Shown piece after piece: positions 5,164 to 11,518 of a DNA stretch of 64,000 nucleotides. Positions within the stretch are counted from its first letter, which is position 1. Each line of letters begins with the position of its first letter. Made by a program: the position numbers and the translations under genes. Source of the DNA: Deferrisoma camini S3R1 (GTDB lineage: Bacteria > Desulfobacterota > Deferrisomatia > Deferrisomatales > Deferrisomataceae); NCBI RefSeq assembly GCF_000526155.1, contig NZ_JAFN01000001.1, forward strand, positions 206,824 to 270,823, read 5' to 3'. The notes beneath the pieces were generated by a model, which was given only the letters and a program-made list of their open reading frames with translations, was not told the origin of the DNA and ran no database searches.

Positions 5164-5838
5164 TTACGGAAGGAGTTTGATCAGCGTGACGATCACGCCG
5201 GCCTGGGCGATGAGGAGGCCGGTGACCCAACGGAGGGTGGAGGCATGGGTGCGGACGACCTCCGCCCGTACCCGCTCGATCTCCAGACGGTTCTGCTCGA
5301 TGCGAGCGGAGAGGTCTGCCCGTACCTCCTCGATCCGCTCGGACAGACCCGCTCGGACGTGCTCAGTGCGCTCGGACAGGTCTGCCCGGACCTTTTCGAT
5401 CTCCAGGCGGTTCTGTTCCATGCGGGCGGACAGGTCCGCCCGGATCTGCTCGATGCGTTCGGACAGGCCTGCTTGGACGTGCTCGATGCGCTCGGACAGG
5501 TCTGCCCGGACCTTTTCGATCTCCAGGCGGTTCTGTTCCATACGGGCGGACAGGTTCGCCCGGATCTGCTCGATGCGTTCGGACAGGTCTGCTTGGACGT
5601 GCTCGATTCGCTCTGACAGATCCGCCCGCACCTCCTCGCCCTGGAGGCGTAGACGCTCGATCTCGGTGCGCAGTTCCTGGATATCCCTCTTGAGCTCGAG
5701 TTTCACCGCCTCGAGCTGGTCTTGGGTGGCCACGTCGGCCGGAATCCGCTGCTCCAGGCGGTCGAAGGCCTCGGCCAGGGCCCGGGCCTTGGGCTCATCG
5801 TCCTTGAACGCCTGGTAGATGTCGAGGGCGATGGACAT
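5164..5838 (-). CDS. Coiled-coil protein with C-terminal membrane anchor, internal 40-residue repeats
   Basis: A 224-residue protein whose N-terminus (MSIALDIYQAFKDDEPKARALAEAFDRLE) and general plan resemble the small DUF1640/CCDC90-like coiled-coil proteins common in bacterial genomes. Residues ~50-195 form a continuous coiled coil built of three 40-residue repeats with EQNRLEIEKVRADLSERIEHV-like cores; the matching DNA recurs at 5276, 5396 and 5516, exactly 120 bp apart. The C-terminal VTGLLIAQAGVIVTLIKLLP is a single membrane helix. It is probably a tail-anchored inner-membrane protein. The function is unknown. The repeat copy number may vary between strains. Confidence 0.7.
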   Translation of the reverse strand: MSIALDIYQAFKDDEPKARALAEAFDRLEQRIPADVATQDQLEAVKLELKRDIQELRTEIERLRLQGEEVRADLSERIEHVQADLSERIEQIRANLSARMEQNRLEIEKVRADLSERIEHVQAGLSERIEQIRADLSARMEQNRLEIEKVRADLSERTEHVRAGLSERIEEVRADLSARIEQNRLEIERVRAEVVRTHASTLRWVTGLLIAQAGVIVTLIKLLP

Positions 5839-6010
5839 GGGTGCCTCTCGGAATATCCAGAAACTGTTTCACAATGTTAGCGGGGAGCCGGAAACCGCGC
5901 AAGGGGAATGGGAAACGGTAGAGGCTCGTCTCGTCTCGCGCCACGACCGCAACGGCGCAAAGGGTTTGGCTTTGGGCAGTCGGGGCGCGGGGGCTCAACT
6001 TGGAGCCGCC

Positions 6011-6075
6011 CTTGGCCGATTCGGATCGGGAAGAGCGGTTTTTGATGAGCGGAAACTTCAAAACTTTTCAACGTT
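6011..6075. repeat. 65-bp diverged direct repeat, copy 1
   Basis: It matches 6325-6389 at 55 of 65 positions without gaps. It starts CTTGGCCGAT and contains GAGCGGAAACTTC. It lies about 540 bp upstream of the sigma-54-like promoter of the PEP-CTERM gene. Confidence 0.75.
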
Positions 6076-6324
6076 ATCCCTCCGGAGGCCGGGGGAGCAG
6101 TGGTGGCGGGAGGTGAGTTGGGGGAGGGCCGGAATCAACTGGGCAGCAGCGTCCCCTCCCCTCGATAACGGTGAGGTTGCAGATCCGCCGAGGCAGAGAC
6201 GTCGCCGACGTGATCCGATCGGGGGTGGGGTGTGCCCGAAAACCATGGGTTCGCTCAACCGCTTGTTATCACAGCATAAATTTTTTGCTTGACGGAGGGG
6301 CTATAGAATGTCCCCTCCCCTGGC

Positions 6325-6389
6325 CTTGGCCGATCCGGATGGGGAAGTGCGGTTCTTGGCGAGCGGAAACTTCGAAATTTTGCAGCGTT
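6325..6389. repeat. 65-bp diverged direct repeat, copy 2
   Basis: Second copy of the element at 6011-6075, about 160-225 bp upstream of the sigma-54-like promoter. That distance would suit an enhancer-type activator site, but no function is shown. Confidence 0.75.
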
Positions 6390-6406
6390 CCTTCGAACGA
6401 TAGTTT

Positions 6407-6425
6407 CGTTTTAGACCAGCGTCCC
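6407..6425 (-). repeat. REP-like RAYT-associated motif, inverted copy
   Basis: Read on the minus strand this is GGGACGCTGGTCTAAAACG, the same motif that precedes and follows the RAYT gene copies at 7764 and 8085-8182. It lies upstream of the PEP-CTERM gene in the opposite orientation, so that gene sits between inverted copies of the motif. Confidence 0.75.
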
Positions 6426-6737: not shown

Positions 6738-7595
6738 ATGCGGAAAAGATTCCTTGCATTTGCCTTAGCTAGTATATGCGGCGTGTGGGCAAGCACGGCG
6801 ATGGCGGTGCCACTCTTCTATAGCCCCACGGACCAACCAGGGACATTGTTTGAGGACAATGATCTTGACTTTTTCGTGGACAACGACGATAATGGCGTAA
6901 TTTCTGAGGGCGACTACCTTTATTCGGCCGTCGAGTTCTCCTTCGCGAAAGATCAAACGAACGACGTGAAGTATTCTTTAAATGAAGAAGGCGACGAACT
7001 GGTCGCGTGGACCGCGATCAAGGTGGAAAAAATCGTCACGGATTTCTCTGACCCCGAGTTCGGTGCTTGGTTTGGCACGATCGACGACGCCACGCCCATG
7101 GTCTCAGTGTACACCGGGGGCCCGATCAATCTTGACACGATCGCGGGTGACCCCACCATGGCCGCAGCCGAGGCGGCCGTCAAAGATGGAACCTTTCTGT
7201 GGGCTTTTTCGGTCACGGACGACCCGGATACGATGTGGCAGTTCATACCGACAAGTCTCTCTGCTTATGACCCGACGGAAGTTGCAAAAGCGGGCAGTTC
7301 GAGCCCGGTAGGGACCATGCGGTTTGCCTTGGAACAGGTTAACGGTGACCCGATCTTCCTGCCGATCACGCTGGATACGACCTTCTTCACCTTCGGCGAC
7401 AGCTTTGGAGACGACCTCGTGCACCTGCGGGGCAGCGGCGACATCCTTGGTGGACAGGGTTTGACCTACGCGTTTGCACGCAGCGACGTGGACGTCGAGG
7501 TCAACCCAGTTCCGGAGCCGGGTACCATGATCCTTCTCGGCTCGGGGCTTTTGGGCGTGGCTGGCGTGAGCCGCCGCCGGAAAAAGAAGGCCTAA
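6738..7595 (+). CDS. PEP-CTERM sorting domain protein, exported
   Basis: A 285-residue exported protein. It has a clear signal peptide (MRKRFLAFALASICGVWA, cleavage near STAMA-VP), an acidic beta-rich body, and a C-terminal PEP-CTERM signal: VPEPGTMILLGSGLLGVAGV followed by SRRRKKKA. Exosortase (EpsH) cleaves at this signal and the protein is then displayed or released, usually together with exopolysaccharide. No exosortase gene is in the window. A strong RBS (GAGGAGGG) precedes the ATG. GC content is visibly lower than in neighbouring genes, which together with flanking REP-like motifs hints at transfer. The body is not recognised. Confidence 0.88.
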   Translation: MRKRFLAFALASICGVWASTAMAVPLFYSPTDQPGTLFEDNDLDFFVDNDDNGVISEGDYLYSAVEFSFAKDQTNDVKYSLNEEGDELVAWTAIKVEKIVTDFSDPEFGAWFGTIDDATPMVSVYTGGPINLDTIAGDPTMAAAEAAVKDGTFLWAFSVTDDPDTMWQFIPTSLSAYDPTEVAKAGSSSPVGTMRFALEQVNGDPIFLPITLDTTFFTFGDSFGDDLVHLRGSGDILGGQGLTYAFARSDVDVEVNPVPEPGTMILLGSGLLGVAGVSRRRKKKA

Positions 7596-7627
7596 ACGTC
7601 CACCCAGGCATCCACGGCACATACACG

Positions 7628-7653
7628 AAGAGGGCCCCACCGGGGGCCCTCTT
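7628..7653 (+). terminator. Rho-independent terminator after the PEP-CTERM gene
   Basis: An 11-bp stem AAGAGGGCCCC / GGGGCCCTCTT with a short ACCG-type loop runs into TTTCTT, 33 bp after the stop codon. Confidence 0.85.
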
Positions 7654-7763
7654 TCTTGGTACGCCCGGCATGGGCACTGGCTTGGAGGTGGAAGTCCTCC
7701 CCTGAGTAGGTCACAACGAGGGAAGGGAAGCGCAAGGGCGTGAGGGCGACCGAGACGGAATCC

Positions 7764-7782
7764 GGGACGTTGGTCTAAAACG
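7764..7782 (+). repeat. REP-like motif upstream of truncated RAYT copy
   Basis: GGGACGTTGGTCTAAAACG, one base different from the motif at 8164-8182. The homologous upstream segment continues to the ATG of each RAYT copy, so it marks the left end of the 400-bp duplication. Confidence 0.75.
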
Positions 7783-7825
7783 AAAATATATTGCCCTCCG
7801 TGGGCGAGCGCTGTAGGTTGACCCC

Positions 7826-8221
7826 ATGCCAAGGACCGCAAGGCTCGATGTACTCGGTGTCCTCCAGCACGTGATGGCCCGGGGGATCGACGGGTACGCG
7901 ATCTTTCGGGACGAACGGGACCGGGAGGCGTTCTTGGAGCGCTTGGCCGGGGTGGTGGAGAGGGCTCGCGCGGACCTGCTGGCGTGGTGCCTGATGTCCA
8001 ACCACTTCCACCTGCTGGTCCGCCCCCGCGAGGTGCTGCTGGCGCCGATGATGCGACGGCTGATGACGGGGTACGCTGGTCCACGGGACGCTGGTCCAAA
8101 ACGAATATGGGGAATTCGGGACGCTGGTCCTCGGGAATTCGGGACGCTGGTCCTCGGGAATTCGGGACGCTGGTCCAAAACGAATATATCTTGCCATTCG
8201 ATGGCGACCACGGTAGGTTGA
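7826..8221 (+). pseudogene. Truncated REP-associated tyrosine transposase (RAYT), N-terminal duplicate
   Basis: The first ~84 codons (MPRTARLDVLGVLQHVMARG to RRLMTGYA) duplicate the start of the intact RAYT gene exactly 400 bp downstream, with only a few substitutions. The reading frame then runs into the REP-like repeat array at 8072-8182 and ends in unrelated sequence. It keeps the HUH motif (NHFHLLV) but lacks the catalytic tyrosine region and everything C-terminal, so it cannot be an active transposase. It arose by partial tandem duplication of the RAYT 5' part including its upstream REP-like motif. Confidence 0.85.
8072..8182 (+). repeat. REP-like short repeat array between the two RAYT copies
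   Basis: Four copies of GGGACGCTGGTCC begin at 8085, 8118, 8141 and 8164, the last three at a 23-bp period (GGGAATTCGGGACGCTGGTC-type unit), with a partial copy at 8072-8082. The first and last continue into AAAACGAATAT. RAYT enzymes are known to act on such REP palindromes, so this array is the likely substrate of the adjacent enzyme. Confidence 0.8.
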
Positions 8222-8225
8222 CCGC

Positions 8226-9236
8226 ATGCCAAGGACCGCAAGGCTCGATGTACTCGGTGTCCTCCAGCACGTGATGGCCCGGGGGATCGACGGGTACGCG
8301 ATCTTTCAGGACGAACGGGACCGGAAGGCGTTCTTGGAGCGCCTGGCCGGGGTGGTGGAGTGGGCTCGCGCGGACCTGCTGGCGTGGTGTCTGATGTCCA
8401 ACCACTTCCATCTGCTGGTCCGCCCCCGCGAGGTGCTGCTGGCGCCGATGATGCGGCGGCTGATGACGGGGTATGCCGTGTGGCACAACCGCCGGCATGG
8501 CCGGCGTGGCCACGTTTTCCAGAACCGGTACAAGAGCATCGTGGTGGAGGAGGAGCCGTACTTCCTGGAGCTGGTGCGCTACATCCACCTGAACCCGGTG
8601 CGGGCCGGCTTGGTGGCCTCGATGGAAGCCCTGGACGAATACCCTTACACCGGGCACGCGGTGCTCCTGAGGAGCCGGGAGCTCGCGTGCCAGAACGTGG
8701 ACGAAGTGCTCCGGATGTTCGGCCGGCGCATGGGGGAGGCGCGGAAGGGGTACCGGGCGTTCGTGGAAGCCGGATTCAGCCAGGGGAGGCGCGAGGAGCT
8801 TCGGGGCGGTGGGCTGGTTCGGAGTGCCGGGGGGTGGAAGAATCTGCTGCGGAGGAAGAGGGAGGAGCGGGAGCCGGGCGACGAGCGGATCCTCGGGGGC
8901 GGGGAGTTCGTGAGGGAGCTGTTGGAGCGGGCGGGCGCGCCGGTGCGGCGATCGGAGAGGGACGTGCTGCACGTGCTGGAAGAGGTGTGCCGAGAGCATG
9001 GGATCGGGAGGGAGCTGGTGCTGGGGCGGACCCGCCGCCGGGGGGTGGTGCGGGCCCGGGAGGCATTCTTTCTGAGGGCTCACGAGGAGGCGGGGGAGAG
9101 TTTTGCGTCGCTGGGGCGGCTGTGCGGCATGTCCCACACGGCGGTGCGCGCGGCGATCAGGCGGGCCCGGCAGAAGAGGGAAGCAGGGACGCCTCCGCCT
9201 CCAGGGCGATCCGGGGCAGGCGGGAACGCCGAGTGA
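8226..9236 (+). CDS. REP-associated tyrosine transposase (RAYT, TnpA-REP) with DnaA-type HTH tail
   Basis: A 336-residue Y1-type HUH nuclease. The N-terminal domain holds NHFHLLV (HUH motif, about residues 59-65), HVFQNRYKSI, and YFLELVRYIHLNPVRAGL with the conserved tyrosine-bearing helix. The C-terminal ~90 residues (DVLHVLEEVCREHGIGRELV ... LGRLCGMSHTAVRAAIRRAR) look like the DnaA C-terminal helix-turn-helix that many RAYTs carry. RAYTs nick REP hairpins and are thought to spread them as single-copy domesticated transposases. The REP-like array just upstream is its probable target. A nitroreductase-like gene follows after 20 bp. Confidence 0.9.
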   Translation: MPRTARLDVLGVLQHVMARGIDGYAIFQDERDRKAFLERLAGVVEWARADLLAWCLMSNHFHLLVRPREVLLAPMMRRLMTGYAVWHNRRHGRRGHVFQNRYKSIVVEEEPYFLELVRYIHLNPVRAGLVASMEALDEYPYTGHAVLLRSRELACQNVDEVLRMFGRRMGEARKGYRAFVEAGFSQGRREELRGGGLVRSAGGWKNLLRRKREEREPGDERILGGGEFVRELLERAGAPVRRSERDVLHVLEEVCREHGIGRELVLGRTRRRGVVRAREAFFLRAHEEAGESFASLGRLCGMSHTAVRAAIRRARQKREAGTPPPPGRSGAGGNAE

Positions 9237-9256
9237 CGAGTTCAGGAAACCAGAAG

Positions 9257-10273
9257 ATGCCGCCACCCCCGTTTCGTTGGTTAGAGAGAGCCGTATCCGG
9301 AGCCCCTTCGGGATTCAACCGCCAGCCGTGGCGCGTGGCGTGGACCCGCGATGGCCTTCGGGTCACCCGCAGGCCCGATTTGCCCGGGTGCTGGTTTGAC
9401 ACGGGCTTCCGGTACACGTGGATCGACTTTGGCGCATTGGGGGAGTGCTTGCGGCACGCCGGGGCCCGGGCGGGGTGGCGAGTGGGGGGCATGGGGGTCC
9501 GGGCCCGAGCCGACGGGCCGGCCCTGTGGTTGCCGCTGGAGCGTGAGGCCGGCGCGGGCACCCAGGAGGAGCGGCCGGGAGCATCCGTACTCCGGGACCG
9601 CCGGACGCATCGCGAACGGTTCGCACCGGTCGAGGCCCTCCCAATAGCGCTGAAAACGGTTCCGGTCCCCGGAGTGAGAGCCCAGTTGTTGGCTGGAGAT
9701 CGGGGGCGGAACGCACGGGCCGTGTGGTTGGCCCGTTTCGAGGCGCTCTCTCTCCGGTGCGCCGAGGTGCGCCGGGAGCTGCTGGGGGGGCTCGCCGGGG
9801 ACGGGGGGCGGGGAACGGGAATACCCGCGGAGTGCCTTGCCCTGCCAACGGCGGTGGGCCCGGTGTTTCGCTGCCTGCTGCGTCACCCGGCGTGGGATGC
9901 GGTGTGGCGCGTTGCCGCGCCGGTGTATGGGCGCGTCGCCCTGGCGCGCATCCGTTCGGCCTCGGCCCTGGTGTCGTTTGCGCTGGAGGGGCCGGAGACG
10001 CCGGAGGGCCTGGTGGGCTTGGGGGCGGCGTTTACTCGTTATTGGCTTGGCCTCACGGCCGAGGGACTGGCGGCCCAGCCCTATTCTTCTTTCGTGTACC
10101 CGCGGCTTTGCGGCCGGCGCTGCGGGCTGAAACGGTGCTTGGTGGCTCCGGAAAGTTGGCAGGAGCACTTTTCTGCGAAGCCGGAAATCGTTTTTCGGGT
10201 GGGGCGGCCCACCCGACGGGTGCCGCCCCGCCCGCATCGGCCCCTGGAGGACGTGCTGGCGGTGGAGGAGTAG
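9257..10273 (+). CDS. Nitroreductase-like (Acg-type) flavoprotein, putative
   Basis: A 338-residue protein. The N-terminal APSGFNRQPWRV motif and RRTHRERF segment are typical of the nitroreductase-like Acg family, and the end (VFRVGRP, then PRPHRPLEDVL) matches the FMN-binding nitroreductase C-terminal pattern. It would bind FMN and may reduce or sequester the flavin. The substrate is unknown. The ATG at 9257 was chosen because the homologous region starts within a few residues of it; the ribosome site is weak. It follows the RAYT gene by 20 bp but there is no obvious functional link. Confidence 0.7.
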   Translation: MPPPPFRWLERAVSGAPSGFNRQPWRVAWTRDGLRVTRRPDLPGCWFDTGFRYTWIDFGALGECLRHAGARAGWRVGGMGVRARADGPALWLPLEREAGAGTQEERPGASVLRDRRTHRERFAPVEALPIALKTVPVPGVRAQLLAGDRGRNARAVWLARFEALSLRCAEVRRELLGGLAGDGGRGTGIPAECLALPTAVGPVFRCLLRHPAWDAVWRVAAPVYGRVALARIRSASALVSFALEGPETPEGLVGLGAAFTRYWLGLTAEGLAAQPYSSFVYPRLCGRRCGLKRCLVAPESWQEHFSAKPEIVFRVGRPTRRVPPRPHRPLEDVLAVEE

Positions 10274-10282
10274 TGCCGGTGG

Positions 10283-11518
10283 CTACACGTGGCCCAGGGC
10301 GTCCACGATGGGTTTGCGGGCGGCCCGGCGGGCGGGGAGGGCTGCGGACAGAACGGACAGGGCCACGAACACGGCGAAGCCCACGGCGAGCACGGCTGGG
10401 ACCAGATCGACCTCCACCTGCACGAGCTCGGCCACGCCCGGGGGCTTGTAGCGGATGTCGGCGGCGGTCACCAGGACGCGGCCTGCGGCCGTGAGCCCCA
10501 GGCCCGCCACCGCCCCCAGGGTGCCGAGAACCGCGCCCTCGAATGCGAAGAGCCGGATCACGTCCCAGGGCTTGAAGCCGATGGCCCGCAGGGTGCCGAT
10601 CTCCCGGAACCGCTCGTACACCGACATGGACATGGTGTTCACGGTGCCCATGACGACGATCAGGGATGTAATGGAGAACAGGAACAGGAACACCACGTCC
10701 AGGAAGTTCTTTGCCTTGCCGTAGTACTGGCTGATCTGTTCCCACGTGCGCACGTCCACCGGGATGCCGAGGTCCGCGGCAACCCGTTCCACCCGGGCCT
10801 TGACCTCGGGCACGATCGAGACGTCGTCGCAAAGGATGCTCAAGCGGTCGCACCCGTCCGTGTCGTACAGGCTCTGGGCCATGGCCAGGGGCATTTTCAC
10901 GTACTTGTCGTTCATCTCGTCGGAGAACGTGGCGTAGGTGCCGGCCACGGTGGCGTCCACCGCGTTCATCTGGCCGTACTGAGTGGTGGCCATGAGGACC
11001 ACGTTGCTCCCGGGCTGGAGCCGGAGCAGGGTGAGGAGATCCGGTCCCACCAGGATGGCGTCCGGGCGGTCACGCGGGAGGGTCTTCCGGCTCATCCAGC
11101 GGCGGTAGCGGTAGTGGCTCCACAGGTCGGCCTCCTTGGCCGGGTCGATCGCGTCGGATAGGAAGATGGTGGACACGTCGCCGTTCGAAAGGAGGCCGGT
11201 GAGCTCCATTCTTCGGGCCACCCAGGCCACGCCCGGGATCTTTCGGATGGTCTCTGCAAGCCTCGAGCTTTCTTCGCCGGTGAAAAGGTAGTCCTCCGGG
11301 CGGAGGCGTCCTTCCTCCAGAAAACCCTTCTTGTACACCACCAGATGCCCCGGAACCTCCACGAAGATCGCCGCCAGGGCCATCTTTTCGTACGCCTGGT
11401 GCGTGTACCCCTTGAACATCGCAACCGCCATGTACCCGAACGCGATGGCCAGCACGGTGATCAGGCTGCGGCGGCGGTTCTTGAGGACGTTGCGGAAGGC
11501 GATCTTCAGAAGGGTCAT
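10283..11518 (-). CDS. FtsX-like ABC transporter permease (LolCE/MacB type)
   Basis: A 411-residue permease. It has an N-terminal membrane helix (SLITVLAIAFGYMAVAMF, residues ~18-36), a large periplasmic domain (~40-270), then three membrane helices (~285-410) with MSVYERFREIGTLRAIGFK, the FtsX-family coupling segment. Such permeases work with a LolD/MacB-like ATPase in lipoprotein release or macrolide/lipid export. No partner ATPase lies beside it. The upstream side is only 130 bp from an IS21 insertion, so the original operon may have been separated. The specificity is not predictable. Confidence 0.85.
   Translation of the reverse strand: MTLLKIAFRNVLKNRRRSLITVLAIAFGYMAVAMFKGYTHQAYEKMALAAIFVEVPGHLVVYKKGFLEEGRLRPEDYLFTGEESSRLAETIRKIPGVAWVARRMELTGLLSNGDVSTIFLSDAIDPAKEADLWSHYRYRRWMSRKTLPRDRPDAILVGPDLLTLLRLQPGSNVVLMATTQYGQMNAVDATVAGTYATFSDEMNDKYVKMPLAMAQSLYDTDGCDRLSILCDDVSIVPEVKARVERVAADLGIPVDVRTWEQISQYYGKAKNFLDVVFLFLFSITSLIVVMGTVNTMSMSVYERFREIGTLRAIGFKPWDVIRLFAFEGAVLGTLGAVAGLGLTAAGRVLVTAADIRYKPPGVAELVQVEVDLVPAVLAVGFAVFVALSVLSAALPARRAARKPIVDALGHV

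Follow-up and report, generated by a model that had tools for sequence, protein, structure and literature searches.

What process has left the 5' end of a transposase gene, together with a short motif in front of it, repeated 400 bp apart with an array of the motif at the junction? The locus lies in the window, by which we mean the whole 64,000-nucleotide stretch of the Deferrisoma camini S3R1 genome that was analysed, and the original prediction took it for a RAYT gene captured while amplifying its own REP target sequence. The gene instead belongs with the TIRYTs, a little-studied bacterial jumping-gene family, which the passages of Di Nocera et al. (2013, PMC3733652) on TIRYTs, or TIRtrons, describe as Y1 transposases flanked by terminal inverted repeats (TIRs) in place of REPs. 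The parts of the locus, in coordinates of the window, are the following.

6405-6425, minus strand: solo TIR in inverted orientation (GGGACGCTGGTCTAAAACGAA), located by the 21-mer genome search
7634-7754, plus strand: target sequence, part of a repeat with five copies in the same-genus genome G006 (89-95% identity)
7755-7763, plus strand: terminal 9 nt of copy 1 (ACGGAATCC), outside the GGGAC motif; the homology to the uninterrupted repeat (loci L137 and L138) stops at 7754
7764-7784, plus strand: left TIR of copy 1 (GGGACGTTGGTCTAAAACGAA)
7826-8077, plus strand: TIRYT gene of copy 1, 5' part only, interrupted after some 83 codons
8085-8109, plus strand: truncated TIR copy at the break (GGGACGCTGGTCCAAAACGAATATG)
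8110-8163, plus strand: array of 23-bp period, GGGAATTC plus GGGACGCTGGTCCTC twice, then GGGAATTC
8164-8184, plus strand: left TIR of copy 2 (GGGACGCTGGTCCAAAACGAA)
8226-9236, plus strand: TIRYT gene of 336 aa, with Y1_Tnp at 8268-8588 and Bac_DnaA_C at 8973-9164

The 336-aa protein matches Y1_Tnp (38.4 bits) and Bac_DnaA_C (32.4 bits against a cut-off of 31.5), both above the Pfam cut-offs, and the broken gene fragment of copy 1 still matches Y1_Tnp with 24.9 bits across residues 15-77. Residues H60, H62 and Y119 are invariant among the 18 sequences of an alignment of relatives, where Y119 would be the catalytic residue of the window protein, and the DnaA_C domain is present in 11 of these 18 members. 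The AlphaFold2 model (mean pLDDT 79) finds its best fold match in 4er8, the E. coli RAYT-REP complex (E 1.9e-6, TM 0.71 by target length), and also matches the DnaA DNA-binding domain 3pvp (76 columns, rmsd 1.2); a PDB sequence search with the same protein returned DnaA only, the RAYT emerging from the fold search. The NCBIfam RAYT model NF047646 is matched by all 18 aligned members at E <= 0.001, and the window protein scores 62.8 bits on it, below the cut-off of 80. The prediction of a RAYT gene was thus right as to a RAYT-like Y1 transposase, but with its DnaA_C domain and its score of 62.8 against 80 bits the product is a Y1/HUH transposase with a DnaA-type C-terminal HTH, that is, of TIRYT type and not a REP-associated RAYT. 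A similar arrangement is described in the main text of Quentin et al. (2018, PMC6006769), where TnpA_REP subclass 2.1 / 2.1.2 has a Bac_DnaA_C or HTH C-terminal extension and REPs were not found for it. A plasmid search gave 23 records, none covering 80% of the query, and viral contigs gave a single weak relative.

The motif itself, GGGACGCTGGTCC, is the start of the TIR of the window element. When the 21-mer GGGACGYTGGTCYNAAACGAA was searched with up to 2 mismatches, 9 sites were found in the 4.24-Mb genome and none for the reversed control pattern: four are in the window (one of them the solo inverted site), four at a second TIRYT of the same genome (L010) and one stands alone, so that seven of the nine lie at the left end of the window element or at L010 and two are solo. 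Shorter forms carry little information, the 12-mer with one mismatch being near chance genome-wide (49 sites, control 39) and the 13-mer with two mismatches at chance level across the whole window (17 against 16.2 expected); because of the latter, all arguments below rest on the longer motif and on the register of the repeats. The motif of the window can form a 4-bp hairpin (GGAC-GCTG-GTCC), but just 2 of the 308 related ends have this GGAC-GTCC hairpin. Over their first 24 nt these ends are no more stably folded than shuffled sequence (-1.87 vs -1.82 kcal/mol), and the number of perfect 4-bp hairpins, whatever their sequence, is somewhat above that of the shuffles (81 vs 54.9). The check proposed with the original prediction, for genomic copies and hairpin pairing, therefore returned nine sites and a possible hairpin, but neither dispersal nor a conserved palindrome, and the absence of both rules out the motif as a REP. 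The dispersed palindromic REPs that flank the gene of a REPtron are likewise lacking around the window element. The ends of IS200/IS605 elements are subterminal hairpins and asymmetrical. The TIRYT ends are unlike these, being symmetrical and without a conserved hairpin, and the relatives carry paired TIRs, which IS200/IS605 elements lack, although the HUH/Y1 fold is common to both, as seen in the fold matches to IS608 and ISDra2 (2xm3, 2vjv). In the text on TIRYTs of Di Nocera et al. (PMC3733652) the published TIRs are partly dimers or groups, as here, and the published motif is GGGGWSAS where we find a core of GGGACG, the sixth core base being G in 97% of the 308 ends. Aligned as GGGGACGY, our motif agrees with theirs at the first six positions and has G, not A, at position 7 in 97% of the ends; its initial G is found in 76%.

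The 400-bp pair was predicted to be a duplication of the gene's 5' end and motif at a spacing of exactly 400 bp, and the offset is indeed 400, with 7757-8056 aligning to 8157-8456 and bases 7757-7763 seen again in front of copy 2; the copies, however, are 93% alike, with 20 differences in 300 sites. Twelve of these fall within 62 leader sites and 7 within 231 coding sites (Fisher p = 5e-5), the remaining one being in the flank. Since copy 1 is a dead fragment, duplication in place followed by neutral decay should have hit the coding part as hard as the leader, and a faster leader is also what separates copy 2 from the second element L010 (identical sites 35/62 in the leader, 191/231 in the coding part). 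A simple recent 400-bp duplication is disfavoured by this divergence and its concentration in the leader. The pair probably consists of two related elements that came to lie side by side, or of a duplication that conversion later made more uniform; either fits better than a fresh duplication. Copy 1 and the solo site L011 share the same motif variant (GTTGGTCT). The predicted 23-bp-period array at the break is borne out, with units beginning at 8110, 8133 and 8156, of which the first two are identical and the third 91% so, and the 25-nt motif stretch is located at 7763, 8084 and 8163. This exact array is the recent part of the locus and the only plain recent product in the window. A right TIR of the window element was not found, the sole CGTCCC/TGTCCC string in 9101-10400 being intragenic, at 9130; because its right end is lost, the element is a one-ended, decayed relic.

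The surroundings of the element hold further repeats. A 66-nt repeat pair (6010-6075 and 6324-6389, 85% identical, 314 bp apart) adjoins the solo inverted TIR, which is possibly the remains of another element, and the place looks like a graveyard of element ends. Upstream of the element lie a coiled-coil repeat protein with a 33-bp internal repeat (5164-5838, minus strand) and a PEP-CTERM protein (6738-7595). The sequence 7634-7754, which adjoins the left TIRYT copy, is single-copy in the window genome at the search threshold used, compared with five copies in the same-genus genome. This target of copy 1 may resemble the 5' end of a group II intron; as an RNA element it was set aside, as Rfam gave no match at gathering score in the window and, at 7550-7830, none but sub-threshold ones.

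Other elements of the same genome carry duplicated ends as well. In the second element, L010, the TIRs are paired and inverted; its left end bears an exact 88-bp tandem copy and its right end a 58-bp copy at spacing 60, with arrays of short flank pieces beyond the tandem copies at both ends. Locus L018 also has TIRs at both ends, and L024 contains two more genes, one with a 40-bp tandem copy on its left and the other with 60-bp copies and a 23-bp partial copy on its right side. In L024 (2303-3952, minus strand) a truncated TIRYT gene reads in frame into downstream cysteine-rich sequence, giving one open frame of 549 aa whose downstream part is ferredoxin-like by eye. No uninterrupted site for L010 or L024 was found in genomes G006-G008.

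The frequency of such repeats was measured on relatives, comprising 80 named ones and further loci from the class and phylum, in which 99 of 394 genomes had a match at E <= 1e-80. Open reading frames under 180 aa, HMM matches starting beyond profile position 6 and loci L001-L009 were dropped from the statistics, and genes were deduplicated by end sequence. Paired GGGAC TIRs, defined as a GGGAC pair matching at 14/24, were present at both ends of 154 of the 199 deduplicated TIRYT genes; the 45 genes without such a pair were left out, and the window element, having no TIR pair, stands outside the 154. Exclusion of low-complexity words gives denominators of 299-304 at the end itself, and counts of elements use 152 in place of 154 as elements were keyed by locus and strand. 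Among the 308 ends of the 154 elements, a second occurrence of the 8 nt directly outside GGGAC lies within 60 nt at 49 of 304 testable ends, while the same test placed 100, 150, 200, 250 and 300 nt further out gives 1/287, 1/289, 2/289, 2/289 and 1/288; with 7-mers the figures are 64/301 at the ends and 1-5 of about 287 further out. Left and right ends are affected alike (34 and 31 of 154 each), and by the 7-mer test one or both ends are duplicated in 53 of 152 elements and neither end in the other 99. A strict test finds a near-exact tandem copy at 50 of 308 ends, most ends having none, and a lenient one scores 82 of 308 TIRYT ends against 1 of 34 ends of DDE transposons from the same phylum, a small control of 19 loci from 12 genomes, seven of them in one genome, with TIRs in 17 of the 19. 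Repeat units of 7-11 bp that consist of flank only also exist. Re-copying in tandem of the last ten or so bases, often with part of the element interior and at either end, is thus a habit of the TIRYT family as a whole. Contigs of metagenome-assembled genomes (MAGs) often end a few hundred bases from a TIRYT gene (for example G007:C28, L216, L234 and L247), as expected if terminal repeats break short-read assembly.

The register of the duplicated units was taken from 31 strict events that have a period of 12 or more and reach 5 nt or further into the TIR. In 28 of these the outer edge lies 5-13 nt outside GGGAC, most commonly at 10, where uniform placement predicts 14.2 events; the other three lie further out, two of them (L121 right, L257 left) much further, with long extensions on the outer side that do not fit. 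Inner edges are spread over 0-78 nt; the commonest position, exactly 6 and thus directly after GGGACG, accounts for 17 of 50 events, and nine events that have no junction ambiguity stop exactly there. At the junctions the mean microhomology is 1.1 nt where chance gives 0.67, which is a little above random and below what homology-driven slippage would lead one to expect. Where the element itself terminates can be read from uninterrupted homologues. The stretch 7634-7754 matches five places in the same-genus genome, three of which are cut by contig ends; the other two, L137 and L138, run on past GACCGAG in agreement with each other and differ from the window, and therefore copy 1 begins at about 7755, 9 nt outside GGGACG. 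In Desulfosarcina alkanivorans, the left homology of one copy (A) to repeated modules of the same gene cluster stops at GGAACCA, followed on the element side by GGAAAGTTA, then the unit GGGAAAGTTA, then GGGACA; because the two flanks of copy A correspond to separate points in the module, this site has also been rearranged. As the uninterrupted homologues of window copy 1 and of copy A place the ends there, the outer edge of the duplicated units coincides with the element terminus to within a few nucleotides.

The same species shows when the repeats arise. The complete genome of D. alkanivorans PL12 contains four TIRYT copies of about 100% identity within 40 kb (L308-L311, at 6.88-6.92 Mb of G395:C1), all in the same orientation and at least one inside a tandem-module gene cluster, a clustering that suggests local hopping or co-amplification. 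Outside the motif, all four have GAAAGTTA on the left and TAAGGTT on the right. Terminal repeats are absent from copy C and present at both ends of copies A and B, and the right end of copy D bears three units in series, about 98, 24 and 10 nt long, that share one outer edge. The units of copy B include bases unique to B, GT on the left and an extra T on the right, few bases which nevertheless imply that these units formed after insertion at that place. Since four near-identical copies bear different repeats, the terminal repeats form recently and in place. The predicted amplification of its own target by the locus holds to this extent, in that the repeats centre on the element's own recognition sequence and the relatives show them to come from a recent process; it is not caught in the act in the window, where the 400-bp pair has diverged and the copy is a relic, and D. 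alkanivorans shows it better. Positions 1-1115 of L308 are a 1.1-kb sequence with at least nine further copies of about 100% identity in that genome, and it is probably an IS.

The reading that we favour, at a probability of about one half, is that the locus is a decayed TIRYT element with the left-end tandem duplications typical of its family, made by terminal cleavage, inward re-copying and resealing. The transposase would cleave one strand at the element terminus, some 9-10 nt outside GGGAC, so that the flank ends in a 3'-OH and the element's 5' end is bound to the tyrosine. The flank's 3' end would be extended inward before the break is closed, by a variable length (the terminus, the terminus plus GGGACG, or tens of nucleotides), and the protein would then join the lengthened flank to the 5' end that it had displaced, which would yield an extra copy of the terminus; repeated rounds may build arrays at either end, and the stop after GGGACG may reflect bound protein blocking extension, or a second cut. 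The chemistry and strand of cleavage, the extension and the resealing at TIRYT ends are what we infer from the repeats, because the outer edge lies at the terminus, the inner edge is variable, little homology is involved and the two ends behave alike. Against this reading, most ends lack a repeat by the strict test and the window's 400-bp pair is unlike a simple duplication; the outer edge also varies over 5-13 nt between ends, so that cleavage would not fall on one fixed base in all elements. There is a precedent in the reported attack of a free 3'-OH oligonucleotide on the Tyr-5'P of TnpA_REP, as given in part of PMC8266576.

An unlikely though serious alternative is unequal strand exchange, in which the transposase would cut one sister terminally and its partner further in, with a preference for the position after GGGACG, and join the two into tandem copies without extension by a polymerase. 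The sharp inner stop in the nine unambiguous cases resembles a second cut site, and the similar behaviour of both ends suits this too, but the spread of inner edges over many positions (0-78, with units of about 98, 24 and 10 nt in copy D) is unlike a second specific cut. The slight excess of 1-2 nt microhomology leaves room for a repair-based process, and many terminal segments are purine-rich by inspection, some starting with GGGA-like runs; both features would suit an origin by slippage or template switching during ordinary replication of a G-rich repeat, with the transposase uninvolved. Such an origin is nonetheless improbable when the background rate in the same loci is some 20-50 times lower, the outer register lies preferentially near the element terminus and the DDE element ends of the same phylum are nearly free of such repeats (1/34).

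Nested or repeated insertion, with new or partial copies landing beside an existing end and bringing their own terminal 9 nt, is quite improbable as a general account, as it leaves the flank-only units of 7-11 bp and the B-only bases unexplained. It is the preferred account of the window's 400-bp pair alone, given that elements carry about 8 nt outside GGGAC, that the pair diverges as two elements would, more in the leader than in the coding part, and that the TIR variant of copy 1 is shared with the solo L011. Many of the relatives come from short-read MAGs, where misassembly might be suspected, but an artefact is hardly credible when the window genome, a single contig, and the complete genome of D. 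alkanivorans both have the repeats, and short-read assembly would tend to collapse such repeats.

The literature searched, outside which most subscription papers fall, gave no report of terminal duplication at TIRYT ends. The main text of PMC3733652 leaves duplication unmentioned, its tandem passages not being on TIRYT ends, and that of PMC6006769 makes no mention of tandem repeats. Tandem REP clusters that include flanking DNA are already known from the parts of PMC3733652 and PMC3116915 that treat them. In the tandem REPIN clusters described there by Bertels and Rainey (2011, PMC3116915), the units extend beyond the recognition element into the sequence on either side, as ours do; those clusters consist of dispersed REPINs, whereas here it is the transposase element's own ends that are repeated, in units that start near the terminus.

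A wider interpretation, which we offer tentatively and hold to be possible, is that TIRYTs are terminus-copying enzymes that repeatedly cleave their own ends, re-copy the terminus inward and so build arrays of recognition sites. If true, the same reaction acting at REPs would account for tandem REPIN/BIME arrays with flanking DNA in them, and REP-type repeat families could in this way arise from transposon ends. The register that the duplications keep with the terminus would indicate the position at which the enzyme cuts and predict a specific product, and the D. alkanivorans copies form a natural set with and without duplications on near-identical elements. The finding bears on how Y1 transposases of the RAYT/TIRYT group move or multiply DNA, and on how REP arrays arise.
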